From Kutzneria chonburiensis (GTDB lineage Bacteria > Actinomycetota > Actinomycetes > Mycobacteriales > Pseudonocardiaceae), in assembly GCF_028622115.1 (NCBI RefSeq), contig NZ_CP097263.1, forward strand, positions 2,480,001 to 2,544,000: a stretch of DNA of 64,000 nt. The letters run 5' to 3'. Below, one piece after another: positions 5,401-60,715 of the stretch (its first letter is position 1; the number at the start of each line of letters is the position of its first letter). Under the pieces are notes generated by a model. That model searched no databases. It was not told where the DNA came from and saw nothing but the letters and a program-made list of their open reading frames with translations. The translations under genes and the position numbers were made by a program.

Positions 5401-8400
5401 CGTGAGCGGGTAGATGTCCTCGATCTCCCGGCCGTTGCCGGCGATCCGGTCGACCTGGTGCTGGGCTAGGCCGGCCAGCGGGAAGTCGGACGGCGTGCGG
5501 CCGCCGGCGCCGGGCTCGGCGCAGTGCCGGATGATCTCGTGCAGCGCGGCCACGAGATCACCGGCGAGCCGGCGGACGGTCGACTCGCGGTGCAGTTCCG
5601 TGCAGTACTGCCAGGTCAGCTCCAGCTTGCCGCCCTGGACGACGCCGACGACGTCGAGCTGGTGCGGCCGGCGCTCGTCCGGGCCGATCGCCGAGTCGAG
5701 CGTGCCGGCGTCGGTGAACTGGCCGAGGTAGTTGAAGCTGATCCGCGGCTCGGCGGTGGCGTGGATGAGGCCGGCGACGCCCTTGTTCGGCACCGCGCGG
5801 AGCTGTTCCTTGACCGACTTCAGCGTGTCGGCCCAGCCGCCGCCGATGGTCAGCTCCACGGGGTACATGGAGGTGAACCAGCCGACGGTACGGGACAGGT
5901 CGACGTCGTCGAACAGCTGCTCACGGCCGTGGCCTTCGAGATCGACCAACACCCGGTCGCGCCCGGTCCAGTTGGCCAGCACCCGGCCGAGCGCGGCCAG
6001 CAGCACGTCGTCGACCTGCGTGCGGTAGACGCCGGGCACGTCCTGGAGCAGCGCCCTGGTCTGGATCGCGTCCAATCCGACAACAAGTGTTGTCGTGGTG
6101 GCGAAGGTGTTGGGGCCCTTGCCGTCCGTGGGCAGCGTCGGATCGGCGGTGAGCCCGGTCCAGTGCGCGACCTCGGCCCCGAAGTCGTGCCGGTCGAGCC
6201 GCTGCGACCAGTCACGGAACGAGGTCGTCTTGGGCGGCAACGCCTTCCGGTGGTAGGCCGCTTCCAGGTCCTCGACCAGCACCCGCCACGAGATACCGTC
6301 GACCACCAGGTGGTGCGCGGTGAGCACGAGGACGTTCGGGGCTTCGAGCTTGGCGCTGATCACCGGGCCGTCGGCCAGGTTGATCTCGGCGTCGAGGATC
6401 TCGGCCGGCTCGTCCGGGGCATTGTGCTGCCACCACTGGCCGTCGATCCGGTGGAACCGCATCCGCAAGGCGTCGTGATGTGCGACCACAGTGGACAGTG
6501 CGGCCCGGAGTTGCGGCAGGTCGAAGTCCTGCGGCCACTCGATCCGCATCGACTGCGTGAACGACTCCGGCACCACCGCGCCGTCGAGGTACCAGCGCTG
6601 GATCGGCGTCAGCGGCACTTCACCGCTGACCGCTCCCTGTTCCGCGACGATCTGCACGGCAGCGGTGGCATTGGCCGCTAGCCCGGCGATCGTCGGGTGC
6701 GCGAACAGATCTCGCGGCGTGAGGTTGAGGCCGGCGGCCCGGGCCCGGGAGACGACCTGGATGCTCAGGATGGAGTCGCCGCCGAGTTCGAAGAAGTTGT
6801 CCTCCACGCCGATACGCTCGGCCCCGAGGATCTCCGCCCAGATGGTCGCGAGAATCCGCTCGTTGTCGGTCCGCGGCGGCAGATAGCCAGTCGTGACGGC
6901 GAGTTCGGGGGCCGGCAGCGCCTTGCGGTCGACCTTGCCGTTACGGCTGAGCGGCAGCTCGTCGAGCTGGACGATCGCCGCCGGCACCATGTAGTCCGGC
7001 AACCGCTCGGCCAGGAATTCCTTGAGCCCCTTGGCTTCCCCGACGACGTACCCGACCAGCCGCTTGCGCCCCTCGTCGGTCCGCACGGCCACCACGGCCT
7101 GCTCGACGGCCGGGTGCTCGGCCAGCACGGCCTCGATCTCGCCGAGCTCGATCCGGAAACCCCGCACCTTGACCTGATCATCGGCCCGGCCGACGAACTC
7201 GACCACGCCGTCACGCCAGCGCACCAGGTCGCCGGTCCGATACAGCCGCTCGCCGCTGCCGAACGGATCCGCCACGAACCGCGACGCCGTCAGCCCCGGC
7301 CGGCCGATGTAACCCCGGGCCACGCCGGCACCGCCGATGTACAGCTCCCCCACGGTCCCCGGCGGCACCAGCCGCAAGTCGCCGTCGAGCACGTACAGCC
7401 GCATGTTGTCCAGCGGCGAGCCGATCGGGATCGAATCCGGGACCTGGCCGCGCATCTTGTGCCGGGAGGCGAAGGTCGTGGTCTCGGTCGGCCCGTAGCC
7501 GTCCACCACGCACACACCGCTCGCGATCACGCGCCGAACCGACTCGGCCGGGACGACGTCACCACCCGTCCACACCTCTGTAAGACCCAAAAGGCAGTTA
7601 GGGTCTTGCATCGCGAAGAGACGGAACAGACCAGCGGTCAGCCACATCGCCGTCACGCCCTGCTGCACGGCCCAGCGGATGACCGAGGCATCGACGTCAC
7701 CGGGCGGCGCGACGATCACGCGGCCGCCGTTGAGCAGCGGCACCCACACCTCGTAGGTGGAGGCGTCGAAGGCCTGCGGCGAGTGCAGCAGCGTGGTGCC
7801 GTGGCCGCGGGCGAAGGAACGATCGCGGGCCAGGTCGACGATGTCGGCGTGGGTGACGGCGACCCCCTTGGGCACGCCGGTCGAGCCGGACGTGAACATC
7901 ACGTAGGCCAGGTTGGCCCGGGCAACCTTGACAACAGGTGTTGTCGGAGGCTCGTCGGAAGCAACGTCCTCCAGCACGATTCGCACGCCGGCCAGGTCCA
8001 GGACGGCCTGCTGCCGCGAGGCCGGGGCCCGCAGGTCGAGCGGCACGTACGCGGCGCCGGCCTTGAGCACGGCCAGCTCGGCGATCACCAGGTCGACCGA
8101 GCGCTCGAGGCGCAGCCCGACCCGGTCCTCGACCCCCACGCCGAGCTTGATCAGCCGGTTGGCCAGGCGGTTCGCCCGGGCGTCGAGCTCGCGGTAGGTC
8201 AGCGAATCCACCGCGAGGGCGTCGGGATCCTGCCGGGCGAACGCCGTCAGCACGGTGTCGAAGCTCGGCGCGGTCGCCGTGGCGTTCCACTCCCGCAGCA
8301 CCAGACGGCGCTCGGCCTCGGTGAGCAGATCCAGCTCCCGCACCGGCTTCCCCGGTGCGCGGACGATGGCCGTGAGCACCAGGTCGAGCTGGTCGGCCAG

Positions 8401-11400
8401 GCCATGCACGGTCGACTCGTCGAACAGAGTTGGGTCGTAGTCGAAGCTGACGGCGAGCGTGTCGCCGGGCTGCACGACCACGCTGAGGGGGTAGTTGGTC
8501 GGCTGGACCTCCCCCATGCCGTGCATGCCGATGCCATGGGCGGCAATGGCTTCCTCGTCGAACGGGTAGTTCTCGAACACCAGCAGGCTGTCGAACAGGG
8601 TCGCGCCGACCCAACCCTGGAGCTGGGCCAGCGACACGAAGTCGTACTGCCGGGCCTGCGAGAGCTCCTGCTGCACGGCCCGCAGCCAGTCGGTGACGGA
8701 CTTGCCGTCGTCGACCCGGATCCGGCTCGGCAGGGTGTTGATCACCATGCCGACCATCGACTCCACGCCGGGCAGGTCGGCCGGGCGGCCCGACACCGTG
8801 GTACCGAACACGACGTCACTGCTGCCGCTGCGGCGGGCCAGCAACAGACCCCACGCGGCCTGCACGATCGTGTTCACGGTCAGACCGAGGTTGTGGGCCA
8901 ACGCCTTCAACGGCTCCGCCGCGTAGTCGACACGAACGGTCGCGCACGACTGGGCCCGGTGCGATTCCACCGGCTGGCGGTCGAACGGCAGCGCGGTCGG
9001 GCCTTCCACGCCGTCCAACGCGGTGCGCCAGAAGGACTCCGCCTCAGCCAAGTCCTGAGTGGACAGCCAGCGCAGGTATTCGGCGAACGGCGTCCGGCGC
9101 GCCGGCGTGCCGACGGCCTTGTAGTCCTCGCACACTTCCTGCACCAGCTGGGCGCAGCTCCAGCCGTCCAGCAGCACGTGGTGGAACGTCCAGACCAGCA
9201 GCACCTCATCGGCGGCGAGCCGGGCCAGCGTCACCCGCATCAGCGGGGCGACGGCAAGATCCATGCCGCGGGCGCGGTCGTTGGCCAGCAGTTGCCGCAG
9301 GCGGTCGTCGATGTCGCCGGACGTCCAGTCCAGCACGGTGACCGGCAGCGTGACGTCGCGCTGGACGACCTGCACCGGCTCGGCCAGCCCGTCCCACACG
9401 ATCCGGCTGCGCAGCACCGGGGTCCGGTCGACCAGCCGCTGCCAGGCCGCGCCGAAGGCCGCCGGGTCGTCGATGCCGGTCAGCCGCAGCTGCACCTGGT
9501 TGAAGTAGGCGCCGGAGGAGCCGTCGACCAGGCTGTGGAAGATCATGCCGGCCTGCAACGGCGTCAACGGGTAGATGTCAGCGACGCCGCGGCCGTCGCC
9601 GACCAGTCCGTCCACATCGGACTGAGTGAGGCGGGCCAGCGGGAAGTCGGACGGCGTGCGGCCGCCGACGCCGGGCCGGGCACAGTGCCGGACGATACCG
9701 GCCAGAGCCTCGATCATGGCATCGGCGAGGGCGCGGACCGTCGCCTCGGCGTGCACCTGATCCGAGTAGTACCAGGTCAGGTCCAGGCGATCGTGCTGAA
9801 CCAGCGCGACAACGTCCAGCAGGTGCGGTCGGCGCTGGCCGGGATCGGCGGAGCCGCCGATGGAACCGTCGTCGGTGAACTGGCCGAGGTAGTTGAAGCT
9901 GATCTCCGGGTCGACCGCCGGCGCGGAGCCGGCCAGGTGGCGCAGGGCGCCGTAGCCGACGCCTCGACGCGGCACCGCCCGCAGGTTTTCCTTGACCTGC
10001 TTCAACGTCTGGCCCCAGTCGGCGCTGACGGCCAGCTCGACCGGGAAGATCGACGTGAACCAGCCGACCGTGCGGGACAGGTCGACGTCGTCGAACAGCT
10101 GCTCACGGCCGTGGCCTTCGAGGTCGACCAGCACGCGATCACGGCCGGTCCAGTCGGCCAGCGCGCGGCCGAGCGCACTGAGCAGGACGTCGTTGACCTG
10201 CGTGCGATAGACGGCCGGCACGTCCTGGAGCAGCGCCCGGGTGTGCTCGGCGTCGAGGCTGACGGTGATCGTCCGCGCCGAACCCATGGTGTTGACGCCA
10301 TCGGCGTCGGTCGGCAGCTCGGCGTGGCCGGTCAGGGACGTCCAGTGCGGCAACTCGTCGTCAAAGCCGCCGGCCTTGGTGAAGTCGGCCAGCCGCGTCG
10401 ACCATTCCTGGAACGAGGTGGTCTTGGCCGGCAGGGCCTCGCCGCGCAGCGCTGCGCGCAGATCCTCGGCCAGGATCCGCCACGACACCGTGTCGACGAC
10501 CAGGTGATGAGCTTCGACCAGCAGCTTGTCGCCAACCAACTCGGCCCGCAGCATCGGCCCCTTGAGCAGGTCGAATGCCGGTCCGTCGAGAATCTTGGCC
10601 GGTTCGACCGGCCACGTCCGCTGCCCGTCGGCGAAAGTGGTGCGCAGCGCGTCGTGGTGGGCCAGCAGGACATTGAGGGCCCGGTCCAGTGCCGCGCGGT
10701 CGACGCCGGGCAGATCGAGCAGCATGGACTGGGTGAAGTGCTCGGCGTGCACGGGTTCGGCGTCGAGGAACCAATGCTGGATCGGGGTCAGCGGCGCGTC
10801 ACCGGTCACTGCCCCCTGATCGGCCGTCGCGGTCGTGGCCGTGCCGGCGGCCGCGGCCAGCGCGGCGATCGTGGGGTGTGTGAACAGATCGCCGGGCATC
10901 AGGCTCAGGCCGGCCTGCCGAGCCCGGGACACGACCTGGATGCTGACGATCGAGTCGCCGCCGAGCTCGAAGAAGTTGTCCTCGGCCCCGACACGGTCCA
11001 GGCGCAGCACCTCCGCCCAGATCGCGGCCAGCGTGCGCTCGGCGTCGGTGCCGGGCTCGACGTGCCCGCGGCTGATCTCCGGGGCCGGCAGCGCCTTGCG
11101 GTCGACCTTGCCGGTCGCGCTGAGCGGCAAGGACTCCAGCTCGACGATCACCGCCGGCACCATGTAGTCCGGCAGCCGCTCGGCCAGGAACTCCTTGAGC
11201 CCGTCAGCCTTTCCGACGACGTAACCGATCAAGCGCTTGCGGCCGTCGTCGGTCCGCACGGCCACCACGGCCTGATCGACGGCCGGATGAGCACCCATGG
11301 CCGCCTCGATCTCACCGAGCTCGATGCGGAAGCCACGGATCTTGACCTGGTCGTCGGCGCGGCCGACGAACTCCACCACGCCGTCACGCCATCGGACCAG

Positions 11401-14400
11401 GTCGCCGGTGCGGTACAGGCGATCGCCGTCGCCGAAGGGGTCGGCGACGAACCGGGACGCCGTCAGGCCGGGCTGGTCGCAGTAGCCACGGGCCACGCCG
11501 ACACCGCCGATGAACAGCTCCCCCACCACACCGGGCGGCACCAGGCGCAGATCGGCATCGAGGACGTACAGCCGCATGTTGTCCAGCGGCGTCCCGATCG
11601 GCACCACATCCGGCACCACACCGGTCATCAGGTACCGAGACGCGAAGGTCGTGGTCTCGGTGGGGCCGTAGACGTCCACAACGGACAGTCCGTTGCAAGC
11701 AGCCAACACTCGGCGCAGCGCCTCGGCCGGCACCGCTTCGCCGCCGGTCCAGACCTCGGCCAGCCCGTCGAAGCAGCCCGGATCCTCCTGCGCCACCAGG
11801 CGGAACAGGCCGATGGTGAGGAACAGCGAGGTGATCCCCCGGCCGATCGCCCAGCGAATCACCGCCGGGTCGACGCTGCCCGGCGGGGCGACGATCACGC
11901 GGCCGCCGTTGAGCAGCGGCACCCACAGCTCGTAGGTGGAGGCGTCGAAGGCCTGCGGCGAGTGCAGCAGCACCACCTTGTGGTTACGCCGGAACGCCCG
12001 GTCGGCCGCCAGCGCCACGATGTCCCGGTGCGTGATCGCGACGCCCTTCGGCACGCCGGTCGACCCGGACGTGAACATCACGTACGCCAGGTTGGCCGGG
12101 TGCACCTTGAGCTCAACCGGGCCGTCCGACGCGCCCTCGTCGATCATGGCGATCTGTCCGTTGTGGACGGTCTCGCCGACCGGACGCCAGCGGTCGTCGG
12201 TGATCAGCACCGTCGTGTCGGCGGCGAGCATGCGCAGCCGCTCCTTGGGCGCACGGGCGTCCAGCGGCAGATACGCGCCGCCGGCTTTGAGCACCGCCAG
12301 CTCGGCGACGACCAGCTCCACCGACCGCTCGAGCAGCAGCGCCACCGGCCGGTCCCGCTCGACCCCGAGCTCGATCAGCCGGTGCGCCAACCGGTTCGAC
12401 CGGCGGTCCAGCTCCGCGTAGGTCACGTCGTCAACGGCCAACTCGTGCGGCCGGCGGCGAACCTGGGCGGCGAACAGCTCGACCACGCTCAGTTCGGGCA
12501 GCGGCTGCGCGGTGTCGGTGTAGTCGTGCAACAGCAGGGTTCGCTCGGCGTCGGTAATCATCGGCAGCGCCGCCAGCGGCCGAGCCGGGTCGGCGGCGAT
12601 CTCCTCGATGAGCGCCCGCAACCGATCGGCCAGCGCCGCGATGGTCGTCTCGTCGAACAGGCGCGGGTCGTAGCCGAAGGCCAGGGTCAGCCGGTCGCCG
12701 GGGTAGGCCACCACGGCCAGGGGGTAGTTGGTCGTCTCGACGCCGCGAACGTCGCGCAGGCCGAGTTCGGCGTCCACCGGGTAGTTCTCGAACACCAGGA
12801 TGCTGTCGAACAGCGCGCCGGTCGGCGGGGCGTAGTCGAAGCGCCGGGCCGCCGCCTGCTCGTCCTGTATCCGCCGCAGCCACGGCACCAGCTCACGCGA
12901 CTCGTCAACGTCCACAATGGACGGCAGCGTGGCGATGAAGATGCCGGCGATGTCTTCGGCACCGGCCAGATCGGCCGGGCGACCGGAGACCGTGCTGCCG
13001 AAACACACCTCTCGCTGCCCGCTGTGCCGGGCGAGCAGCAGCGCCCAGGCGCCCTGCACGACCGTGTTGACGGTCAACCCGTTGCGCTGGGCCATTTCCC
13101 GCAGGCCGTCGGCCGGGAAGTCGATTCGCAGGCTGGCCGTGGACTCGGCGTTCCCGGACGGCTGCCGGTCGTAGGGCAGCGGTGTCCGCTCGGCGGTGTG
13201 CTGACGCCAGAACGCCTCCGCCGCCGCAGTGTCCTGTTCGGACAGCCAAGCCACGTAATCCCGGAACGGCCGCCGCGCCGGCAGTTCGTCATCGTGCACG
13301 ACCGCCATCACGTCGGCGAGAACCTGGAACAGGCTCCAGCCGTCCAGCAGCAGATGGTGGAACGTCCACAGCACCCGGGTTTCCACACCCTGGTCGACCA
13401 GGGTCACCCGCATCAGCGGGGCGGTCGACAGGTCCAGCCCGGCCGCCCGATCCTCGGCCAGCAGATCGGCGAAGTCGCCTTCGTAGCGGCGGATCGGCAG
13501 CTTCACACCGCGCCGGACCACCTGGACCGGCCGGTCGACGCCCTCCCATACGATCTCGCTGCGCAGCACCGGCGTCCGGTCGACCACGGTCTGCCAAGCT
13601 GCCGCCAGCTCGTCGGCCCTGGCGTCAACCGTGAAGCTGACCTGCTGGAAGTACGCGCCTTGACCGTGTTCGACCAGGCGATGGAAGACCATGCCGGCCT
13701 GGGTCGGCGTCAGCGGATAGATGTCCTCCACACTCCGGCCGTCGCCGACCAGCCGATCCACTGTGGACTGATCAAGCCCGGCCAGTGGGAAGTCCGACGG
13801 CGTGCGACCACCGGCACCCGACTGTCCACAGTGCTCGATGATCTCCAGGAGCGAGGCGCGAAGGGCGGCGGCCAGTCCCTCGATGGTTGTCGAATTGTGC
13901 CGTACGCCATGGAAGAACGTGAACTCCAGGCAGCCGTTCTCCACCCGGCCTACGACGTCCAGCAGATGCCGACGCGGCGCGGCCGGGTCCTCATGCAGCG
14001 CCATCTCGCCTGCATCGTCGAACTGCCCGAGGTAGTTGAAGCTCACCGACGGCTCGATCGCCGGCACGCTGCCGGCGAAGTAGTGCAGCGCCCCGTACGA
14101 GACACCCTTGTTCGGCACCGACCGCAGCTTTTCCTTGACAGTCTTGAGATCCCGGGCCCAGTCGCCGGCGATCTCCAGCGACACCGGGAAGATGGACGTG
14201 AACCAGCCGACCGTGCGGGAGATGTCGACATCGGGGAACAGGTCCTCGCGGCCGTGCCCCTCCAGGTCGACGACCACGCGCGGGCTGCCGGTCCAGTCCG
14301 ACAGCACGCGACCGAGCGCCGCCAGCAGCACGTCGTTGACCTGCGTGCGATAAACCCCCGGCACGTCCTGCAACAGCGCCCGGGTTTGCGCGGCATCGAG

Positions 14401-17400
14401 CCGCACGCTGACCTCGCGCGTATCGGCGACAGTGTCCTCGCCGACCGTGTCGACGGGGATCGGCACGTCCTCGATCGCGCGCCAGTACTCCGCGTCGCCG
14501 AAGGCGTGGTTGGTCAGCTTGTGCGCCCACTCCTGGAACGAGGTCGTGCGCGGGCCGAGGTCGCCGCCGCGGTAGGCGGTCATCAGGTCCTCGACCAGGA
14601 TCCGCCACGAGATGCCGTCCACCACCAGGTGGTGCACGTACAGCGTGACCTGGTCGGCGGCGGTGATCGCGGCCCTGATCAACGGGCCGGTGGCCAGGTC
14701 GAACACCGGATCCGGCTCGCCCAGCACGGTCACCGGCTCCGCCGCCGAGATGATCTGCCGATCGGTGAACCGCGCCCGCAGCATGTCGTGGTGGTCGACC
14801 AGCGCCTGCAACGCCGGTGCAAGCTTGGCCGCGTCGACCGGCTGATCGAAGGTCGCCACCACGCTCTGCGTGAAGTGGCCCGGCTTGGCCGGCTTCGTGT
14901 CGAGGAACCACCGCTGGACCGGGGTCAGCGGCACCTCGCCCAGCGCCGGCCCGCGCTCGACCAGCTCCCCGACAACAACTGTTGTCGCGAGGGCGGCGAT
15001 GGTCTGGTTGAGGAAGATGTCCCGGGACGACACCTTGAGCCCGGCCTTGGCCGCGCGGGACACGACCTGGATGCTCAGGATCGAGTCGCCGCCCAGCTCG
15101 AAGAAGTTGTCCAGCACGCCGACGCGGGCGACACCCAGCACGTCGACCCAGACCTCGGCCAGCACCCGCTCGGCGTCGGTGCGCGGGGCGACATAGTCGG
15201 TGCCGTGCGCCTCCCAGTCCGGCGCCGGCAGCGCTGCCCGGTCGAGCTTTCCGTTGGGGTTCAACGGGAACTTGTCCAGTTGGACGAAGCCCGCCGGCAC
15301 CATGTACTCCGGCAGCCGGCCGTTGAGGTAGTCGCGCAGACCGTCGGTGGCACCGACGATGTAGCCGACGAGCCGCTTGTGGCCGTTGTCCTCGCGCACG
15401 ACCACCACCGCCTCGGTGACGGCCGGGTGCGCGCGCAGAGCGTTCTCGATCTCGCCGAGCTCGATCCGGAAGCCCCGGATCTTGACCTGGTGGTCGGCGC
15501 GGCCCAGGTACTCCAGCTCGCCGGCGGCGGTCCAGCGCACGAGGTCGCCGGTCAGGTACATGCGGCTGCCGGCCGGGCCGTAGGGATCGGCGACGAAACG
15601 GTCGGCGGTGAGGCCGCCGCGGTTGAGGTAGCCGCGGGCCAATCCGTTGCCACCCAGGCACAACTGGCCGGTCACGCCCGGCGGGACCGGCCGGAACGCC
15701 GAGTCCAGCACGTACGCCTTGGTGTTGGCGATCGGCCGGCCGATGGGCGGGTTCCGGTCCTGGCCGTCATCGAACCAGGCGGTGGCGTAGACCGTGGCCT
15801 CGGTCGGGCCGTAAATATTGGCGATCTTCACGCCGGGCAGCGCCGCCCGAACATCCCGCACCGCCTTGGCCGTCAACGCTTCGCCGGCCAGCACGACGTG
15901 CTCGGGCGTGACCGAGACCGCGCCCTGGGCCAGCAGCTGCGCGAACGCCGACGGCACGCCGCTGACCAGACTGGCCGGCCAGTCCGCGCCGCGCCGCTCG
16001 CCCAGCGCCAGCACGTCCCGGACGACCTCGATGCGGCCGCCGACCATCAGCGGGCAGAGGACCTCGAACACCGAGACGTCGAAGTTGAGCGAGGTCGAGG
16101 CGACCACAGCGGACAGGCCACCAGCACCGAAGTCCTTGGCCGCCCACGCCATCAGATCCACGGCCGTGGCGTGCGTGACGACGACGCCCTTGGGGCGGCC
16201 GGTCGAGCCCGAGGTGTAGATGACGTACGCCGGATGCGCCGGGAGCAACCCGGTGTCGCCGAGATTCTCGCCGCTGCCCGGCAGCTCGCCGACCTCCGTC
16301 AACACGACCACCGGCCGCGCGTCGGCGATCATCAGCTCGCGCCGTTCGGCCGGGTACTTCGGGTCCACCGGCAGGTAGGCCGCGCCGGACTTGAGCACGG
16401 CCAGCACCGCGACGATCATGCGCTCCGACCGCGGCATGGAGATCGCCACCAGCCGTTCCGGGCCCGCGCCTTGCTCAATGAGCCTGCGGGCCAAGCGGTT
16501 CGCACGCTCGTTGAGCTCGCGGTAGGTCAGCTGCCGGCCTTCGCACAGCACCGCGACGGCATCGGGCGTGCGGTCGGCCTGCTGCTCGAACAGCTCCGGC
16601 AGCGTCACCGACGGCACATCGATCACCGGACCCTGCCACTCGGTCAGCACCTGCCGGCGCTCGGCGTCGTCCAGCAGCGGCAGCTCGCCGACCGTGCGCG
16701 CCGGGTCGGCGGCGATGCCGTCCAGCAGCACCCGGAGGTGGCCGGCGATGCGGTCGATCGTGCTGGCGTCGAACAGATCGGTGTTGTACTCGACGGCCGC
16801 GACCAGGCCGCCGTCCCGCGGCACGAACTCGAAGACCAGATCGAAGCGGGCCCTTGGGCGCGGCAGATCGTGCTCGCTGATCCGCAGCTCGTTGGCCGTA
16901 CGGGCCGGCACCATGGCGTTCTGGAGGATGATCAGGGCCTGGGCCAACGGGGTCCGGCTCGGGTCGCGCGCCGGCTGGAGATCGGCGACGACCTGGTCGA
17001 ACGGCAGGTCGGCGTATGCGAAGGCCTCCAGCACCGTCTCACGCGCGTCCGTCAGGAAGTCGGGGAAGCCCTGCGCCGGGTCCACCCATGCCCGCAGCAC
17101 CAGCGTGTTCACGAAGAAGCCGGCAACCCGCTCCAGCTCGGAGTGATCACGCCCGGAGACGACGGTGCCGAGGGCGACCTGCTGCTGGTTGCTGTGCCGT
17201 GCCAAGAGCAGTTGCACGGCGGCGGTCAGCGTCATGAACAGCGTGGCCCCGTGGTCCTGCCCGATCGCCGACAACCGGGTGACCAGGTCGGCCGGCAGGT
17301 CGTAACGGCGGATGGACCCGTTGGTGGTCCGGACCTGCGGGCGGGGACGATCGGTCGACAGCTCCAGCGGGGTGAGGCCGGAGAGCTTGCGCCGCCAGTA

Positions 17401-19707
17401 CGCCAGCTGCCGCTCCCGCAGCCGCGGCGTCAGGCGTTCCCGTTGCCACAGCGCGAAATCCGCGTACTGTACGGTCGGCGTCGGCCGCTCGCCGCCGGTG
17501 TAGCCGGCGATCAGGTCGTCCACCAGCACGCCGACCGACCAGCCATCGGTGATGATGTGGTGCTGGCACAACAGAAGCACGTGGTCGTCGGGGCCGAGTT
17601 CGAGCAGCGACGCCCGGGTCAGCGGGCCCTCACGCAGGTCGAACGGCCGCTCCAGCTCGGCCTCGATGTCGTCGATCCGGTGCAGCGGCAGGGATCCCTC
17701 GTCGTGGATCACCTGGACGATCTCGTCGTCGACGGTGTCGAAGGTCGTGCGCAGCGACTCGTGCCGTGCCACCAACGCCGTCAGCGCCGTCTGGAGGGCA
17801 TCGACGTCGAGCGGGCCGCGCAGGCGCAGGCCGATGGCCGAGTTGTACTCCGTGTCGCCGGCGGTCAGGTCGTTCATCAGCCACAACCGACGCTGCGCCG
17901 GAGAAATCGGCACCGGGCCGGTGCGTGCGACGTGGCGGATCCGGTTCTCGGCGGCGCGAGCCTGGGGCGGCAGCAGCTCGGCGATGCCGGCGACCGTGCG
18001 CGCGTCGAACACGATGCGCGGCGACAGGTCGACGTCGAAGCTGGTCCGGATCCGGGCCAGCAGCTTCGCGCCGAGGATGGAATCCCCGCCCAGCTCGAAG
18101 AAATCGTCGTGCACGCCGACCTCGTCGACGCCGAGCAGCTCTCCCCACAGCCGGGCCAGCACGGACTCCGCCTCGGTGCGCGGTGCCGCGTACTCGGTGC
18201 GCCGGGCAGCCGACCAGTCCGGTTCCGGCAGCGCCTTCCGGTCAAGCTTCCCGTTGGGGCCCAACGGGAACCGCTCCAGCCGCAGGATCGCCGCCGGCAC
18301 CATGTAGTCTGGCAGGGTCGTCGCGAGATGGGCCCGCAGGTCCGCGTCCGTGTCGCCGACGACATAGCCGACGAGGCGCTTCACGCCGGGGCGGTCCTCG
18401 CGGGCGATCACCACGGCGTCGCGGACGCGCGGGTGCTGGCGCAGCGCCGTCTCGATCTCGCCCAGCTCGACCCGGAAGCCGCGGATCTTGACCTGGTGAT
18501 CGGCGCGGCCGACGAACTCCAGCACACCGGCGGCCGTCCAGCGGACCAGGTCGCCGGTGCGGTACATGCGGGCGCCCGGCGCGAACGGGCTGGCGACGAA
18601 CCGTGAAGCGGTCAGGCCCGGACGCTCAAGGTAGCCGCGGGCCAGGCCGATACCTTCGACGTACAGCTCCCCGGTGGCGCCGACACCGACCGGACGAAGA
18701 TCGGCGTCCAGCACGTGGGCCCGGGTGTTCCAGATCGGACGGCCGATGGGCGGGGTGCCGCCCGGGGTCAGCGGGTCGCTCCAGGTGGCGACGACCGTCG
18801 ACTCGGTCGGCCCGTACGAGTTGATCATGCGGCGGCCGGGGGCCCAGCGGCGGACCAGGTCGGCCGGGCAGGCGTCGCCGCCGACGATCAGCGTGCGGAA
18901 GTCGGGCAGCTTCGTGTCCGGCACGGTGGCCAGCGCCACCGGCGGGATCAGCGCGTGCGTGACGCGCTCCCGGCGCAGCACGTCGGCCAGTCGGTCGCCC
19001 AGCAGCGGTCCCGGCGGCGGCACGACCAGCGCCGCGCCGGCCGGCAGCGACATGCACAGTTCCAGGATGGACGCGTCGAAGCTGGGCGAGGAGAACTGGA
19101 GCACGCGGTCGCCGGCGCGCACCTCGTACCGGTCCATCTCGGCCGCGGCGAAGCTGGCCAGGCCGGCGTGCGTGACGACAACACCCTTGGGCCGCCCGGT
19201 GGACCCCGACGTGAAGATCACATACGCGGCGTGGTCGGTGCACTGTGGACCGTCGACCGGCCGATTCGGATGATCGTCGAACAGGCCCGGGGTGTCCAGG
19301 GTGATCAGCGGCACAGCCGCCGGCAGCCGGTCGGCCAGCGTCGCGCGGGTGACGACCAGCACCGGATCGGCGTCGTCGAACATGAGCGAAATTCGCTCTT
19401 TCGGGTAGTCCGGGTCCACCGGCAGGAAGGCCGCGCCGGTCTTGGCCACCGCCAGCTGCGCCGCCACCAGGTCGGCCGAGCGGGGCAGGGCCAGCGCCAC
19501 GATCCGCTCCGGCCGCGCGCCGCGCGCCGCCAGCAGGTGCGCGAGCCGGGTGGCTCGCGCGTCGAGCTCGGCGTAGCTGACCGTGCCGTCCGCCCCCAGC
19601 AGCGCCGGCGCGTCGGGGGTGCGCGCGACCTGCGCCTGCACCAGCTGAGCCAGGGTGCGGGCGGGCAAAGGCCGGTCAGTGGCGTTCCACTCCGGTGGGA
19701 CCGACAT
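2425..19707 (-). CDS. Five-module NRPS: A-T / C-A-T-E / C-A-T-E / C-A-T-E / C-A-T
   Basis: A 5760-residue synthetase. Approximate layout: A1 1-500, T1 (GGDS ~540), C2 ~590-1030 (HHIITDG ~717, LCL type), A2 ~1050-1520, T2 ~1541, E2 ~1590-1990 (HHLVVDG ~1695), C3 from ~1998 (HHLLLDG ~2121, DCL type), A3 ~2440-2890, T3 ~2920, E3 (HHLVVDT ~3070), C4 from ~3380 (HHVLLDG ~3512), A4 ~3840-4280, T4 ~4312, E4 (~4467), C5 from ~4767, A5 ~5230-5680, T5 ~5703. There is no N-terminal C domain (loading module) and no thioesterase. My reading of the ten pocket residues is A1 DALLIGSVVK, A2 DVFSVAIVYK, A3 DAYFWGVTFK, A4 DAYWWGGTFK, A5 DALLIGAVVK. A4 matches valine codes and A3 isoleucine-type codes; A1, A2 and A5 are not assigned. 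The expected order is X1, D-X2, D-Ile-type, D-Val, X5. A carrier domain at the C-terminus hands over to the next NRPS. Confidence 0.97.
6079..6094. repeat. 16-bp palindrome GACAACANNTGTTGTC inside the NRPS gene
   Basis: Perfect palindrome (centre AG) in the module-4 epimerisation region. It is read in the gene as codons ACA ACA CTT GTT GTC, which are unusual for this GC-rich gene. It is one of three copies. Confidence 0.85.
7930..7945. repeat. 16-bp palindrome GACAACANNTGTTGTC inside the NRPS gene
   Basis: Second copy (centre GG), in adenylation domain 4 upstream of the TSGSTG loop. It is read as ACA ACA CCT GTT GTC. Confidence 0.85.
14971..14986. repeat. 16-bp palindrome GACAACANNTGTTGTC inside the NRPS gene
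   Basis: Third copy (centre AC), in the linker between T2 and E2. It is read as ACA ACA GTT GTT GTC. Confidence 0.85.
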
Positions 19708-20982: not shown

Positions 20983-22158
20983 TCAGTCGGCGTGAATGCC
21001 GGGCCGGTACTTCGGCACCCGAAGGTGGATCTTCGTGCCGGCCCCGACGGCGGTCTCCACGACGAGGCCGTACTCGTCTCCGTATACCTGGCGCAGGCGC
21101 TCGTCGATGTTGCCGAGGGCGATGCCGGTCTGCTCGTCGGGCTCACCGGCGAGGGTCCGGCGCAGGCGGTCGGGGTCCATGCCGACACCGTCGTCCTCGA
21201 TGCTGATGTGGGCCTCGGCCCCGGCATCGGCGGCCTGGATGCTGATCCGGCCGGGCCCGACCTTGCCCTCCATGCCGTGCCGCACGGCGTTCTCCACCAG
21301 CGGCTGCATGCACAGGAACGGCACGGCCACCGGCAACACTTCGGGCGCGATCTGGAGCGTCACATGGAGTCGTTCGCCGAAACGGGCGCGCTCCAGGGAC
21401 AGGTACTGGTCGATGGACCGGAGCTCCTCGGCCAGCGTGGTGTACTCGCCGTGCCGCCGGAACGAGTAGCGGGTGAACTCGGAGAAGTCGAGCAGCAGCG
21501 TGCGGGCCCGCTCGGGATCGGTCCGCACGTAGGACGCGATGGCGGTGAGCGAGTTGAAGATGAAGTGCGGCGAGATCTGCGCCCGCAGGGCCCGCACCTC
21601 GGCTTCGATGAGCCGTCGCTTGGACCGGTCGAGCTCGGCCAGCTCCAGCTGACCGCCGGCCCAGCGGGCCACCTCGTTGGCCGCCCGCACGAGCCCGGCC
21701 GACGCCTCGGCGGCGTACGCCAGCAGCACGCCGGCGATCCGACCGTCCACATGCAACGGAACCATGACGGCAAAGCGCAGCGGGCACTCGACATCGTCAC
21801 AGGAGACCCGGGCCACGTGCGAACGGCCATGGGTCAGCGCCTGGGCGATGATCTCCAGGGCTTCGGCCGAGTGTTGCTCACCTATGCCGTCCCAGGCCAG
21901 CACCCGTTCGCCGTCGGTCAAGGCCAGGGCCGGAGTGTCAAGCAGGGCACGAAGATGCGGGACGGACCGGCGGGCGGCCTCGGGCATCAGCCCGGCCCGC
22001 AACGGCGGCGCGGCCGACCACGCGGTGTGCAAGGTCTCGTACGTGGCCCGGTCGACGGCGTTGCCGGACTCGCGCAGGGCGTTTCGCAGGCGCCACAACA
22101 ACACCAGCACGGCCAGCGTCATCACGCACAGCAGACCGGCCAGCACAGCGGTCGTCAC
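20983..22158 (-). CDS. LytS-type sensor histidine kinase
   Basis: A 391-residue kinase with one N-terminal membrane helix (about residues 4-23), a GAF-like input region, the His_kinase motif LRAQISPHFIFNSL with phosphoacceptor H198, and a HATPase domain with QPLVENAVRHGM and DDGVGM. There is no multi-span 5TM-LYT domain, so sensing is probably by the single-helix/GAF module. The GTG start overlaps the stop of micro-ORF c by GTGA. It ends the operon of response regulator, DUF485 and symporter genes, and should phosphorylate the LytTR regulator encoded first. Systems of this kind often control uptake of pyruvate or acetate; that function is inferred from the neighbours. Confidence 0.93.
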   Translation of the reverse strand: MTTAVLAGLLCVMTLAVLVLLWRLRNALRESGNAVDRATYETLHTAWSAAPPLRAGLMPEAARRSVPHLRALLDTPALALTDGERVLAWDGIGEQHSAEALEIIAQALTHGRSHVARVSCDDVECPLRFAVMVPLHVDGRIAGVLLAYAAEASAGLVRAANEVARWAGGQLELAELDRSKRRLIEAEVRALRAQISPHFIFNSLTAIASYVRTDPERARTLLLDFSEFTRYSFRRHGEYTTLAEELRSIDQYLSLERARFGERLHVTLQIAPEVLPVAVPFLCMQPLVENAVRHGMEGKVGPGRISIQAADAGAEAHISIEDDGVGMDPDRLRRTLAGEPDEQTGIALGNIDERLRQVYGDEYGLVVETAVGAGTKIHLRVPKYRPGIHAD

Positions 22159-22235
22159 AGCCCCACCTCGCTCACGCCCAGCAGGTCCGCCACCCAGGCC
22201 CCCGCGCTGAACGGTCCCCTCACAAGCCCGGTCAC
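22155..22235 (-). CDS. Micro-ORF c (26 aa), translationally coupled to the kinase
   Basis: GTG start at 22235 within the GTGA that ends micro-ORF b. The 26-residue product begins MTGLVRGPFSAGAW and ends DLLGVSEVGL, and differs from copy b at two residues. Its stop overlaps the kinase GTG (22158) in another GTGA. It is hydrophobic with a few charges; function unknown. That it is translated is inferred from the overlap chain. Confidence 0.6.
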   Translation of the reverse strand: MTGLVRGPFSAGAWVADLLGVSEVGL

Positions 22236-22312
22236 AAGCCCACCCCGCTCACGCCCAGCAGGTCCACGACCCAGGCCCCCGCGCTGAACGGTCCCCTCAC
22301 AAGCCCGGTCAC
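22232..22312 (-). CDS. Micro-ORF b (26 aa)
   Basis: Second of three tandem micro-ORFs. The GTG at 22312 overlaps the stop of copy a, and its own stop overlaps the start of copy c. The product begins MTGLVRGPFSAGAW and ends DLLGVSGVGL. It is too short for usual gene finders. Confidence 0.6.
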   Translation of the reverse strand: MTGLVRGPFSAGAWVVDLLGVSGVGL

Positions 22313-22389
22313 AAGCCCACCCCGCTCACGCCCAGCAGGTCCGCCACCCAGGCCCCCGAGCCCAATGGTGACCTCGCAAGCTCGGTCAC
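22309..22389 (-). CDS. Micro-ORF a (26 aa), coupled to the symporter gene
   Basis: The GTG at 22389 overlaps the symporter stop (22386-22388) as GTGA. The product begins MTELARSPLGSGAW and ends DLLGVSGVGL. The first half has diverged from copies b and c by several amino-acid changes, yet length, frame and both overlaps are kept, which argues against recent neutral duplication alone. Confidence 0.6.
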   Translation of the reverse strand: MTELARSPLGSGAWVADLLGVSGVGL

Positions 22390-24113
22390 GGCGTCTCCTC
22401 CTGGGCCAGCCCGAGCGCCTCCGGGGCGTGCAGCCGGACCATCGTCCGGTTCACCGACGCCGGCACGGTCCGCGGCGTGAGCAGCGAGCCGATGATCATC
22501 ACCGCGAAGCCCAGCGGCACGCTCCACGCCGCCGGCCGGCTGAGCAGATCGTAGACCAGCCCCGATCCGGGTGGCACCAACAGCGTCACCAGCCCGGCGA
22601 CCAGCGCCAACCCGCCGCCGGCGATCATCCCGGCCATCGCCCCGAACGGCGTCAGCCGCCGCCACCAGATCCCCAGCAGCAGCAACGGGCAGAAGGACGA
22701 CGCGGCCACCGCGAAGGCCAGCCCGACGACGTCGGCCAGCGACATGCCCGACACCAGCAGCGCCGCCCCGAACGGCACGATCGCGGCGCAGAAGGCCGCC
22801 ACCCGGAAACCGCGAAGTCCCCGCAGCAGCAACACATCCTGCGACAGCACGCCGGCCACCGACAGCGTCAGCCCCGACGACGTGGACAGGAACGCGGCGA
22901 ACGCCCCGCCGGCCACCAGCGCGCCGAGCAGCTCCCCCAACGTCCCGCCGACCAGTCGTGCCGGCAGCACCAACACCACGGCATCGGTCTGCCCGGTGAG
23001 CAGCAGCTCCGGCGTGTAGATCCGCCCGAGCGCCGCATAGGCCGGCGGCAGCAGGTAGAACACGCCCAGCAGGGCCAGCACGACCACGGTCGTCCGCCGG
23101 GCCTGGCGGCCGTTCGGGTTGGTGTAGAAGCGAACCACCACGTGCGGCAACCCCATGGTGCCGAGGAAAGTGGCGATGATCAGCGAGTACGTGACGTAGA
23201 ACGGGTCGCCGTGCCCCTCCCCGCCCAGCGGCTGCGCCCACAGCGCGTTCGTGTCGGCGGGAATGCCCTTCACCTGCGGTACAACGGATCCGCCCGGGAA
23301 ACCCAGCTCCGCCCCGGCGGAGACCTGATGCGATCCCGGCCCCAGCGACACCGAAGTGCCGGTGTACGACCGGCCGTCCACCTTGCCGGAGACGCGCACC
23401 GACACCCGGGACGGCACCTCGATGTCCACAGTGGTCTGCACGGTCACCTTGGTGTCATTGGGAAACACCGCCGGCACGGATCCGTTGAGCGTCGGCGCGC
23501 CGGCGCCCCGCCAGGCCAGCACCAGGAAGATCACCGGCACGGCCAGCGCCGTCAGCTTCAGCCAGTACTGCACGGCCTGCACGAACGTGATGCTCCGCAT
23601 CCCGCCGGCCATCACGTTCACCGCGACGACCGCCGCCACCAGCAACGCCCCTAGCCAGCCCGGCGCGCCGGTGACGGTCGTCAACGTCAGCCCCGCACCC
23701 TGCAACTGCGGCACCAGGTACAGCCAGCCGATGCCGACCGACAGCACACTGGCCATCCGCCGCACCCGCCGCGACTCCAGCCGCGCCTCGGCGAAGTCCG
23801 GCACCGTGTAGGCGCCAGAACGCCGAAGCGGCGCCGCGACCAACGCCAGCAGCACCAGATAGCCGACGGTGTAACCGATCGGGTACCACAGCATGTCCGG
23901 CCCGTAGGCGAAGATCAGCCCGGCGACGCCGAGGAACGAGGCCGCCGACAGGTACTCGCCGCCGATGGCCGAGGCGTTCCACCACGGCGACACGGTCCGC
24001 GACGCCACGTAGAAGTCCGAGGTGGTACGGGAGATCCGCAGTCCGTAGCCACCGATGAGCAGCGCCGCGACCAGCACCAGCGCCACGAAGACCGCGGAGT
24101 ACGTGCTGCTCAC
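22386..24113 (-). CDS. Sodium:solute symporter (acetate/monocarboxylate type)
   Basis: A 575-residue multi-span membrane protein of the sodium/solute symporter family, similar to ActP/MctC transporters. It shows the SSS-type segment GGEYLSAASFLGVAGL and long hydrophobic helices throughout, with a hydrophilic extracytoplasmic insertion around residues 215-290. It likely imports a small monocarboxylate such as acetate or pyruvate. The GTG start lies 4 bp after the DUF485 stop, and its stop overlaps micro-ORF a. Pairing with a DUF485 partner is typical of actP operons. The exact substrate cannot be read from the sequence. Confidence 0.93.
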   Translation of the reverse strand: MSSTYSAVFVALVLVAALLIGGYGLRISRTTSDFYVASRTVSPWWNASAIGGEYLSAASFLGVAGLIFAYGPDMLWYPIGYTVGYLVLLALVAAPLRRSGAYTVPDFAEARLESRRVRRMASVLSVGIGWLYLVPQLQGAGLTLTTVTGAPGWLGALLVAAVVAVNVMAGGMRSITFVQAVQYWLKLTALAVPVIFLVLAWRGAGAPTLNGSVPAVFPNDTKVTVQTTVDIEVPSRVSVRVSGKVDGRSYTGTSVSLGPGSHQVSAGAELGFPGGSVVPQVKGIPADTNALWAQPLGGEGHGDPFYVTYSLIIATFLGTMGLPHVVVRFYTNPNGRQARRTTVVVLALLGVFYLLPPAYAALGRIYTPELLLTGQTDAVVLVLPARLVGGTLGELLGALVAGGAFAAFLSTSSGLTLSVAGVLSQDVLLLRGLRGFRVAAFCAAIVPFGAALLVSGMSLADVVGLAFAVAASSFCPLLLLGIWWRRLTPFGAMAGMIAGGGLALVAGLVTLLVPPGSGLVYDLLSRPAAWSVPLGFAVMIIGSLLTPRTVPASVNRTMVRLHAPEALGLAQEETP

Positions 24114-24117
24114 AGCG

Positions 24118-24495
24118 TCAGGACTGCTCGACGAGGTCGGCGAACTCCCGCTCGGTCCGCTCCACCCGCCACACGTAGTAGCAGGCGACCAACACGACCA
24201 CCGGGTACACCGCCGCCCCGAGCACCAGCCACGGCAGCGGCAGGCCCAGCACCACCACCGTCTTGGTCAGCGGCACCAGGTTGAACAGCACCGGCAACGC
24301 GGCCAGCGGCCCACACACCAGCAGCACCACCAGCACGCCGAGCCGCAGCTGGGTACGCATCAACGACCGCATGTACAGAGCGCCGACCTCGGACTGCTCG
24401 TCGATCTCCCGCACGATCGGATAGGACCGCGACCGCCGCGCCGCCCGCGTCCACGGGCTGGTGACGACGACCCGCTTCGGCCGCTCCGAGTTCAT
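24118..24495 (-). CDS. DUF485 (YjcH-like) membrane protein
   Basis: A 125-residue protein with a hydrophilic N-terminus and two membrane helices (about residues 53-73 and 85-108), matching the small DUF485 proteins that accompany ActP-type symporters. The ATG at 24495 overlaps the stop of the response regulator by ATGA, so translation is coupled. It is presumed to be an accessory subunit of the symporter. The N-terminal extension of about 45 residues is longer than in the E. coli type. Confidence 0.88.
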   Translation of the reverse strand: MNSERPKRVVVTSPWTRAARRSRSYPIVREIDEQSEVGALYMRSLMRTQLRLGVLVVLLVCGPLAALPVLFNLVPLTKTVVVLGLPLPWLVLGAAVYPVVVLVACYYVWRVERTEREFADLVEQS

Positions 24496-25337
24496 TTGCC
24501 GGCCCGCACCGCGTGCGGCCGGGCCCGCTTGACCAGCAGGTCCCGCAACTGGGGTGTGTGCCGCCGGCTCACGGTCAGCATCGCGCCGCCGATCTTCACC
24601 GACAGCTGGCCGCCGTCCAGCCGCAGCTCCTCCACGTGGGCCAGGGCGATCAGGTGGCTGCGGTGGATCCGCACGAAACCGGCGTCCCGCCAGCGTTCCT
24701 CCAGGCCGGTCAGCGGCGTCCGGACCAGGTAGCTGCCGTTGGCGGTGTGCAGTCGCGCGTAGTCGCCCTGCGCCTCGGCATAGCGCACGTCGGCCAGCCG
24801 CAGGAACCGCGTGATCCCGCCCAGCTCGACCGGGATGACGTCGTCCGGGGTCACCGGCGGCGGCCCAGCCGGCTGTTCCGCCGCCTGTTGCGCCGGCACC
24901 TGCACCGCGCTCGCGATCACCTTGTGCGCCACCCGGTGCACCGCCTCGGCCAGCCGCTGCGGCCTGATCGGCTTGAGCACGTAGTCCAGCGCCTTGAGCT
25001 CGAACGCCTCCACCGCCGACTGGTCGTCCGCGGTGACGAAGACCAGGGCCGGCGGGCTGGCGAACCGGGTCAGCACCCGGGCCAGCTCCATGCCGTTCAG
25101 GCCGGGCATCTTGATGTCCAGGAACACCGCGTCCACCGGCCGGTCCGCATCAGCCGCGCGATGCAGCAGACGCAGCGCCTCGGTGGAGTCCTGGGCACCC
25201 TCGGCCGTGCCCACCCGCGGGTCGGCGCCCAGCAGGTAGACGATCTCCTCCAGCACGGGGAGCTCGTCGTCGACGGCCAGCACTCGCAGCGGCCGGGCCG
25301 ACGGCCCGTCGCACTCCGGGCACGACGCTGGACTCAT
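24492..25337 (-). CDS. LytTR-family response regulator
   Basis: A 281-residue regulator. The receiver domain (about 17-140) has the acidic pair D23-D24, phosphoacceptor D74 in FLDIKMPG and the KP pair in YVLKPI; the LytTR DNA-binding domain spans about 175-275 (DVRYAEAQGDYARLHT, FVRIHRSHLIAL). A short N-terminal extension carries C6-P-E-C9, a CxxC that might bind metal or act as a redox switch. It is the first gene of the minus-strand operon ending in the LytS-type kinase, its likely partner. The promoter should lie between 25338 and 25415. Confidence 0.93.
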   Translation of the reverse strand: MSPASCPECDGPSARPLRVLAVDDELPVLEEIVYLLGADPRVGTAEGAQDSTEALRLLHRAADADRPVDAVFLDIKMPGLNGMELARVLTRFASPPALVFVTADDQSAVEAFELKALDYVLKPIRPQRLAEAVHRVAHKVIASAVQVPAQQAAEQPAGPPPVTPDDVIPVELGGITRFLRLADVRYAEAQGDYARLHTANGSYLVRTPLTGLEERWRDAGFVRIHRSHLIALAHVEELRLDGGQLSVKIGGAMLTVSRRHTPQLRDLLVKRARPHAVRAGK

Positions 25338-59383: not shown

Positions 59384-59907
59384 TCGTCGGCGCGGTCGTC
59401 ATCGCCATCGTGGTGACGGTCTACGCCCTCAACCAGCCGCAGCCCTCATCCACCGCCGGCAGTCCGTCCACCACCCCGTCGCACACCACGACCGCCTCCA
59501 GCACCACCACGACGCCGGCTCCCACCAGCACCACCACCGGCACGACGACTACGACCAGCACCACCACGACCACGTCCGCCGCCCCACCGCCGGCGGACGT
59601 CAGCAGCCAGCTCACCGCTTTCATCACCGACTACTACAAGCTGATGCCCAACGATCTTCAGGACGGCTGGGGCCACCTCACCGCCGCCTACCAGTCGGGC
59701 ACGGCCGGCGGCTTCGCCGGGTACCAGCAGTTCTGGAGCCAGTTCTCCGGCATCGACCTCAGCGGCATCACTGCCACCCCGCCCGGCACCGTCGTCGCCA
59801 CGCTCACGTACCACTACAAGAACGGCGGCACTCGGGTCGAGCGCACCACCTTCGGCCTCGTCCAGCAGGACGGCGCCTGGAAGATCGCGTCCTCGGTGGT
59901 CGGCTGA
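59332..59907 (+). CDS. Membrane helix plus extracellular NTF2-like sensor of the kinase, in the -1 frame
   Basis: From the frame change the sequence reads a basic stop-transfer (GPDRRK), a membrane helix (VVAIALIVGAVVIAIVVTVY), a Thr/Ser-rich linker of ~50 residues and a ~95-residue domain (LTAFITDYYKLMPNDLQDGW ... DGAWKIASSVVG) with the look of an NTF2-like fold. This is the normal C-terminal half of an actinobacterial sensor kinase. If translated separately, the first start codon is GTG 59410, which would cut the membrane helix; so a frameshift or a broken gene is more likely. Confidence 0.75.
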   Translation, partial: VAAAEGPDRRKVVAIALIVGAVVIAIVVTVYALNQPQPSSTAGSPSTTPSHTTTASSTTTTPAPTSTTTGTTTTTSTTTTTSAAPPPADVSSQLTAFITDYYKLMPNDLQDGWGHLTAAYQSGTAGGFAGYQQFWSQFSGIDLSGITATPPGTVVATLTYHYKNGGTRVERTTFGLVQQDGAWKIASSVVG

Positions 59908-60043: not shown

Positions 60044-60715
60044 GTGGACGCCACGCCGGGATCCCAAGCAGGAGCCCGAGGCCACGGACGCTCTCGGCCG
60101 CCTGGACGAACCCGCGCCGGACGAGATGCCCATGCCGGTCGAGGACGAGCCCTCGACCGCCGCCTCCCCCGCCGCAAGCTCGTCGCTGTCGCCGTGCGCA
60201 TCGGCGCGGTCGCCGTAGCCGTCGGGGTCACCGTCTACGCCCTCAACCAGCCGCAACCCTCGGTCACCGCCCGCGCTTCATCGCCCACGGCCAAGTCGAC
60301 CACCGCCGCCCCCACCACCACTGCCGCTCCCACCACCACCGACGAGCAATCGCCGGACGAGGACACGGACGACCCGGCGCCCTCGGACGATCCGATCGTC
60401 GCCACGATCACCGCGTACTTCAACTTCCTGCCCGGTGACCCCGACGCCGCCTGGGCCCTCCTCACCACCGACGCGCAGGCCAGTCTGGAGCGCTACGACG
60501 ACGCCCACGCCCGGTATCGACAGGGCTGGGACCAGTACTCCTCCATCCACATCACCCACGTCACCCACGTGAACGCCGACAGCACTTCCGCCACCGTCAT
60601 GTACGACTCCCAGTACAAGGACGGCAGGCCCGGTGGTACCAATCTTTATAGCTACACGGTGGCCAAGGAAGACGGCCAGTGGAAGATCGCCAGCTGGATG
60701 ATGATCGGCGGCTGA
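60044..60715 (+). CDS. Duplicated kinase sensor region (truncated paralogue)
   Basis: A second copy of the kinase 3' half. The bases from about 60033 match the kinase end (LVWTPRRDPKQEPEA versus LVWMLRRDPKHRPEA), then follow a linker, the membrane helix (LVAVAVRIGAVAVAVGVTVYALNQPQP), a Thr-rich linker and the NTF2-like domain ending DGQWKIASWMM. The kinase domain itself is missing. As in the first copy, the kinase-like part and the membrane part are in frames offset by -1. An in-frame GTG at 60044 opens the membrane-part frame; whether it is expressed is unclear. Confidence 0.65.
   Translation: MDATPGSQAGARGHGRSRPPGRTRAGRDAHAGRGRALDRRLPRRKLVAVAVRIGAVAVAVGVTVYALNQPQPSVTARASSPTAKSTTAAPTTTAAPTTTDEQSPDEDTDDPAPSDDPIVATITAYFNFLPGDPDAAWALLTTDAQASLERYDDAHARYRQGWDQYSSIHITHVTHVNADSTSATVMYDSQYKDGRPGGTNLYSYTVAKEDGQWKIASWMMIGG

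Follow-up and report, generated by a model that had tools for sequence, protein, structure and literature searches.

A putative mobile repeat resembling mycobacterial interspersed repetitive units, in three tandem copies at the start codon of a histidine kinase gene in Kutzneria chonburiensis

Mycobacterial interspersed repetitive units (MIRUs) were reportedly described by Supply and colleagues in 1997. MIRU-type repeats serve the typing of tuberculosis strains. In the parts of a 2025 review drawn on here, MIRUs are mobile repeats that insert at start codons and carry an internal ORF coupled with a -4 spacing (PMC12548453). Their size is given as 46-101 bp or 40-100 bp, depending on the account (PMC12548453, PMC2734929, PMC4213456, PMC3914561), and their hosts are either "many mycobacteria" (PMC12548453) or only M. 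leprae and the M. tuberculosis complex (PMC4213456), as far as the portions used of these papers go. Excerpts from the same literature describe three identical 77-bp MIRUs at the senX3-regX3 junction of M. tuberculosis H37Rv (PMC4213456) and report for fpg1 in M. tuberculosis that longer upstream MIRU arrays correlated with higher mRNA (PMC2734929).

Other small repeats of bacterial genomes share some of these properties. The BOX, RUP and SPRITE repeats of Streptococcus pneumoniae are described, in the extract available, as small, interspersed and probably parasitic, with hairpins at the RNA level, and some BOX elements contain expressed ORFs (PMC3049150). The element reported here is likewise a small interspersed repeat with hairpins and an ORF, but the same extract describes neither start-codon insertion nor a coupling cassette for the pneumococcal repeats, which belong to another lineage and have another sequence. 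In REP/RAYT and IS200/IS605-derived elements a hairpin adjoins a tetranucleotide, and in IS200/IS605 the target pairs with an internal guide. Rickettsia palindromic elements are mobile repeats that survive within coding DNA by means of an open frame; they insert inside genes and extend the protein. The element reported here also keeps its frame open, but as a separate coupled ORF with few fusions (loci L057, L294 and L295).

The array and its empty counterparts

The window analyzed here is a stretch of 64,000 nucleotides from Kutzneria chonburiensis. On its minus strand, three 81-nt ORFs and the flanking symporter and kinase genes are linked by four GTGA overlaps, as read directly (Table 1). 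Each micro-ORF consists of GTG, 25 further codons and TGA, and the unit recurs with a period of 77 bp; the arrangement is exactly that first described in a sequence-only reading of the window. Tandem Repeats Finder places the array at 22154-22389 (period 77, 3.1 copies, 90% matches) with a score of 381, the runner-up tandem array in the window scoring 90. Copies b and c are 94% identical, and the three copies have private changes in common, which suggests that the array was probably amplified locally after a single insertion. Copy b had no separate listing in a search with covariance model R2 restricted to the window. Copies a and b have a weaker Shine-Dalgarno, GGTG. The 5' stem of the family is degenerate in the window's own copies, and the 3' hairpin is predicted for copy c too, although copy c is a diverged copy.

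Table 1. Features at and around the symporter/kinase junction (positions in the window)
Feature	Position	Strand	Sequence or support
Copy a, 77-bp element (81 nt with both GTGA ends)	22309..22389	-	MTELARSPLGSGAWVADLLGVSGVGL, then stop; covariance model R2 E 1.6e-13
Copy b, 77-bp element	22232..22312	-	MTGLVRGPFSAGAWVVDLLGVSGVGL, then stop; R2 E 2.3e-8 in whole-genome search
Copy c, 77-bp element	22155..22235	-	MTGLVRGPFSAGAWVADLLGVSEVGL, then stop; R2 E 2.2e-11
GTGA, symporter stop/copy a start (first overlap)	22386..22389	-	read directly
GTGA overlaps, copy a/b and copy b/c	22309-22312, 22232-22235	-	read directly
GTGA, copy c stop/kinase start (insertion point)	22155..22158	-	equals the single GTGA of relatives (four empty sites)
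3' hairpin of copy c, start codon region and Shine-Dalgarno paired	22155..22192	-	predicted fold; family covariation
Shine-Dalgarno GAGGTG of copy c, 5 nt ahead of kinase GTG	22164..22169	-	read directly; family statistics
LytS-like histidine kinase gene, GTGA start as insertion site	20983..22158	-	PF06580 E 6.2e-24, PF02518
Sodium:solute symporter gene (SSF)	22386..24113	-	PF00474 E 4.4e-44
DUF4212-like small subunit, symporter/kinase operon	24118..24495	-	weak Pfam match E 4.5e-4, below cut-off
LytTR response regulator gene, symporter/kinase operon	24492..25337	-	PF00072, PF04397

A DUF485 gene had been proposed next to the symporter; no DUF485 match was reported, and the small upstream gene is DUF4212-like. 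The kinase gene lies 1.3 kb from a single ORF of 5760 codons (window 2425-19707), which we take to encode a non-ribosomal peptide synthetase. Short tandem repeats detected by Tandem Repeats Finder at 59502-59574 (period 30) and 60299-60341 (period 18) have periods that are multiples of three.

In all four other Kutzneria genomes examined (K. buriramensis, Kutzneria sp. CA-103260, Kutzneria sp. 744 and genus genome G002), the symporter/kinase junction is one clean GTGA without the element. The first three of these relatives are the only Kutzneria among the 80 kinase loci listed, none of which contains the element according to a profile search, and in the kinase orthologues L079-L081 the alignment begins at the same GTGA. 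Between the window and the empty relatives the flanks correspond; three units of 77 bp are added at the GTGA and no flanking bases are lost, as expected from the start-codon insertion described for MIRUs. The sequence alone cannot separate a 73-bp insert with a 4-bp duplication from a 77-bp insert behind GTGA. At a second site in the K. chonburiensis genome, a two-copy array, the element is absent from all six other genus genomes; only three of these relatives (L299, L300 and L302) have a single GTGA at the aligned place, while L301 has a shifted GTGA and L303 and L304 have ATGA.

Dispersal and placement on start codons

In the K. chonburiensis genome (10.41 Mb, one contig), copy c has 12 matches, some of them tandem, and the array is matched in six of the seven genus genomes searched, this one included. 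The exception is a 4.7-Mb genus genome, in which the profile model gives 5 weak matches. A nucleotide profile applied to 78 loci identified 74 arrays with a total of 107 distinct copies in six genus genomes, a short dispersed repeat as MIRUs are. Single copies predominate (52 arrays); the 22 tandem arrays comprise 14 doubles, 6 triples, one of four and one of five copies. The exact 17-nt 5' end occurs at 189 sites in six genomes, compared with 0 for the reversed pattern used as control, and covariance model R2 finds 60 matches in K. buriramensis, 78 in Kutzneria sp. CA-103260 and 84 in Kutzneria sp. 744. The 68 arrays compared represent 45 different sites, and copy number at shared sites differs among species (1/1/1/5, 1/2/4 and 1/1/3 copies), which is another property of MIRUs. 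The copies share descent, and these counts are not numbers of independent events. Loci L292 and L297 of the K. chonburiensis genome belong to a shorter subfamily of 72 and 70 nt with a terminal GGAGGCGGCGTGA stretch and a different 3' half.

The element lies predominantly on start codons. With gene positions from a small codon-usage caller trained on six window genes rather than from published annotation, 64 of the 74 Kutzneria arrays are continued in frame, via the terminal DTGA, by a same-strand gene downstream; the simple caller gives no such continuation for 10. The first DTGA doubles as the stop of the upstream gene in 49 of the 74, and most of the remaining gene-entering arrays are on a start codon that no upstream gene overlaps. 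A test of the frame only gave, on the downstream side, 60/68 for Kutzneria and 95/99 order-wide compared with 183/668 for GTGA/ATGA sites of the window as control, and on the upstream side 49/68 and 67/99 compared with 17/668; among the 99 order-wide arrays, orthologous sites are each counted separately and L233/L289, L235/L290 and L225/L291 are the same sites fetched twice. The 4-nt DTGA overlaps on both sides correspond to the coupling described for MIRUs. Of the GTGA/ATGA sites of the window, only 12 are at called starts, compared with 82 wholly intergenic (including those of the array itself) and 585 inside genes. Because the copies are mostly not in intergenic DTGA, random insertion at DTGA followed by mere clearing from genes does not fit. 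Either start codons are preferred for insertion, or they are where copies best survive or remain recognisable.

Beyond the genus, matches to a sequence-only model were present in 63 of the 200 family genomes, from 25 of 46 genera (E up to 0.001), and in 83 of the 298 order genomes (E up to 1e-4). At a laxer E up to 0.01, 147 of the 298 are listed; we prefer the former count since several of the weak matches (E<=0.01; for example, L193 and L195-L199) do not resemble the element. A model with structure (E up to 0.001) extended the range to 35 of 345 genomes and 20 of 127 genera at the class level, K. chonburiensis included, and found a 69-nt relative in 22 of 297 genomes of genus g53, the copy counts per genome in both searches being lower bounds (13-23 candidates scored per genome). 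In the 69-nt branch of g53 (L223-L236, L278-L291), most ends are ATGA; 3' hairpins occur, and tandem arrays have a period of 65. The scattered single matches from a degenerate pattern search of this genus were, in our judgement, uninformative. Among 23 named hosts searched for the element, the three Kutzneria included, Nonomuraea jabiensis had 12 matches, Planobispora longispora and Streptosporangium minutum 10 each, Thermoactinospora rubra 9, Microbispora corallina 5 and Microtetraspora sp. 4; Rhizohabitans arisaemae, Lentzea waywayandensis and L. californiensis had one each, and no match came from Umezawaea, seven other Lentzea, two Spongiactinospora or Sphaerisporangium. The longest array seen, at L257 701-1243 (genome G416), consists of seven consecutive 77-bp copies.

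Reading frame and RNA structure of the element

DTGA is present at both ends in 96 of 107 Kutzneria copies and in 124 of 133 order-wide copies, the latter 124 including 2 from the K. chonburiensis genome and amounting to 106 distinct sequences. Their length is divisible by three in 116 of 124 (98 of 106 distinct sequences), and a clean open frame is found in 114 and missing in 10. At the class level, 119 of the 137 spans among the matches listed from 26 genomes outside Kutzneria are divisible by three; 72, 81 and 84 are the main length classes, and 69, 75, 78, 90, 96 and 108 occur once each. In the distinct copies that have both DTGA ends and a length divisible by three, a set without frame-broken copies, stops in frames 0/1/2 number 2/29/23 in 98 order-wide copies and 0/31/41 in 84 Kutzneria copies. 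Point changes alone say little about nonsense avoidance (0 observed compared with 1.3 expected, P(0) 0.20), and the three-frame comparison is the informative one. All 85 full-length Kutzneria copies are open, 7 of them without the terminal TGA.

A few copies read differently. In Kutzneria sp. 744 (L057, 1512 onward, reverse strand), the reading frame of the element continues directly into the gene downstream, giving an N-terminal fusion. At the same site in Kutzneria sp. CA-103260 (L023 1512-1748), three 78-bp units without internal stops form one repeat ORF, and L012 has a 78-bp in-frame array as in L023. At L294 and L295 of the K. chonburiensis genome (minus strand, near 4844940 and 5176471, respectively), all that is left of the element is its first ~20 to 40 bases, which continue in frame into a gene whose product begins VSELASEP...; the L294 gene is presumably that of a Nudix hydrolase and the L295 gene that of a tRNA dimethylallyltransferase.

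Shine-Dalgarno complementarity of 4 nt or more lies ahead of the terminal start in 99% of the 96 Kutzneria copies and in 100% of the 124 order-wide ones; after shuffling, the shares are 41% and 38%. An alignment of 42 order-wide copies (A2) supports a structure of 19 pairs with 85.3% of cells paired and a covariation of 0.287. Shuffled alignments have means of 75.8% paired and 0.119 covariation, none of 500 has a covariation as high as that observed, and slid versions attain at most 0.106. In hairpin 1 the opening DTGA pairs with an internal complement, and in hairpin 2 the closing DTGA and the Shine-Dalgarno are paired. Where ATG replaces GTG as the start, the partner base tends to change too. 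In the 81-nt class with ATGA ends it follows in four of five cases at the 5' end but in only three of seven at the 3' end, and among 15 distinct copies with differing ends, eight of them scorable at both, there are four with a match at each end and four with a match at one end; the covariation structure was partly derived from sequences scored in this way. The 24 distinct 69-nt copies, all outside alignment A2, have a start base that matches its partner in 24/24 at each end. Single copies are mostly of unremarkable stability (folding z-scores of +0.10 to -2.36 in 6 copies). Rfam gave no family match at gathering score for five element-bearing loci, where only an unrelated tRNA matched.

A reading of the array and its alternatives

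From the sequence comparisons, we consider the array to be most probably (roughly 0.85) a three-copy tandem of an interspersed, MIRU-like mobile element that sits at the GTGA start of the kinase gene and is built for termination-reinitiation. Each copy adds 77 bp at a DTGA tetranucleotide, and the resident upstream ribosome-binding site and stop would then initiate the micro-ORF in place of the gene. A ribosome traversing the micro-ORF would melt the 3' hairpin, in which the following Shine-Dalgarno and start are concealed, halt at TGA and restart on the overlapping GTG. Insertion would thus be nearly silent for the following gene, with every added copy amounting to one further termination-reinitiation step. 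Coupled translation of the micro-ORF would explain why the frame is kept while the peptide varies, why a gene tolerates insertion at its start codon, and how arrays can function with a period, 77, that three does not divide. The frame-changing copies (the L057 fusion and the single repeat ORF of L023) show what would be an alternative outcome of insertion. The sequence-only reading had considered a device that tunes the flow of ribosomes to the kinase. Open frame, frame-preserving lengths, Shine-Dalgarno and hairpinned starts fit such a device anatomically; its function we infer.

The same reading had also suggested a micropeptide duplicated under constraint. A 26-residue product with a role of its own, for example, with the symporter or kinase, would account for a frame that is open in nearly all copies and for residues E3 and P8, which are invariant, and G25, which is nearly so, among the 80 distinct Kutzneria copies (85 of 107 copies, other lengths and weak copies having been dropped). 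But the ORF is missing at this junction in all four relatives, and as an interspersed repeat it precedes many unrelated genes. Deviations are spread almost evenly over the codon positions (158/167/196) of the Kutzneria copies, giving no clear codon-position signal; 28 of 93 unique changes are synonymous compared with 24.2 expected (P 0.12), pN/pS is 0.71 across 27 orthologous pairs, and Pfam has no match for five element peptides. A functional micropeptide is very unlikely on these grounds, and we infer that selection retains the frame, the peptide being largely incidental. Homologous loci without the ORF, which the sequence-only reading took as the mark of a plain tandem repeat, were found; a plain tandem repeat nevertheless does not fit. 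Ordinary slippage, with overlaps that only coincide with the period of 77, agrees with the near identity of copies b and c and with the local amplification that probably made the array, but single copies that share the two ends and the placement relative to start codons are scattered through the genome, and as a full explanation slippage is scarcely credible.

Two further alternatives concern the use and the movement of the element. Copy number could be an adaptive dial of the kinase to symporter ratio rather than the trace of a tolerated insertion, as might be suggested by the different copy numbers at shared sites (1/1/1/5; 1/2/4) and by the fpg1 arrays of M. tuberculosis in the part of that account used here (PMC2734929). 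At this junction, however, only one genome of the five compared has the array, there is no copy-number series and nothing ties the junction to a phenotype, so that such co-option appears unlikely. Alternatively, the element could be non-autonomous and related to IS200/IS605 or REP elements, with a Y1 (HUH) transposase moving it by pairing the tetranucleotide with an internal guide; this would match the hairpin beside each end, the tetranucleotide target, the empty site without lost bases and the pairing of DTGA at both ends with an internal complement, including the four copies whose differing ends both match. The same pairing, however, is expected if mRNA hairpins hide start codons, and the present element differs from those families by its place on start codons. 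The Y1 transposase domain PF01797 is absent from 16 of 19 element-bearing genomes, that of K. chonburiensis included; it occurs in the other three (one a marginal fragment) and in 6 of the 19 genomes that gave no match to the element. A Y1 transposase as the mobiliser is not supported by this distribution, and we regard kinship of this type as quite improbable. At the sensitivity used, the Kutzneria unit had no match in phage or plasmid collections, and the 69-nt unit had none in the plasmid collection.

The MIRU-like reading is favoured by a likeness that extends, in the descriptions excerpted here, to short repeats at many loci, tandem 77-bp units, start-codon insertion and variable copy number; the best-known MIRU case also lies in a two-component operon and also has three 77-bp copies. 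In each of the features compared, the element is like MIRUs as they are described. It differs in host and sequence family, occurring in Kutzneria and other actinobacteria. Shine-Dalgarno, paired starts and multiple-of-three lengths are documented for the present element. Among the papers listed in a literature search, none was relevant to such repeats outside mycobacteria and none linked MIRUs with DTGA. More tentatively, there may be a class-wide actinobacterial family of minimal mobile elements specialised for start codons, of which the MIRUs of tuberculosis would be one branch. Internal guide bases would match DTGA at both ends, an own ribosome-binding site and reinitiation hairpin would make insertions translationally silent, and movement would depend on an enzyme yet to be discovered or on an RNA-based route.

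The element has no entry in Rfam (five loci) or Pfam (five peptides). Soil actinobacteria that share the MIRU architecture, with up to 84 model matches per genome and a clean empty site, offer a comparative and experimental system whose hosts are harmless. Some copies have turned into parts of host proteins (L057, L294 and L295). The findings suggest how a genome parasite may persist at the most sensitive spot of a gene, its start codon, by bringing its own Shine-Dalgarno and a reinitiation hairpin.
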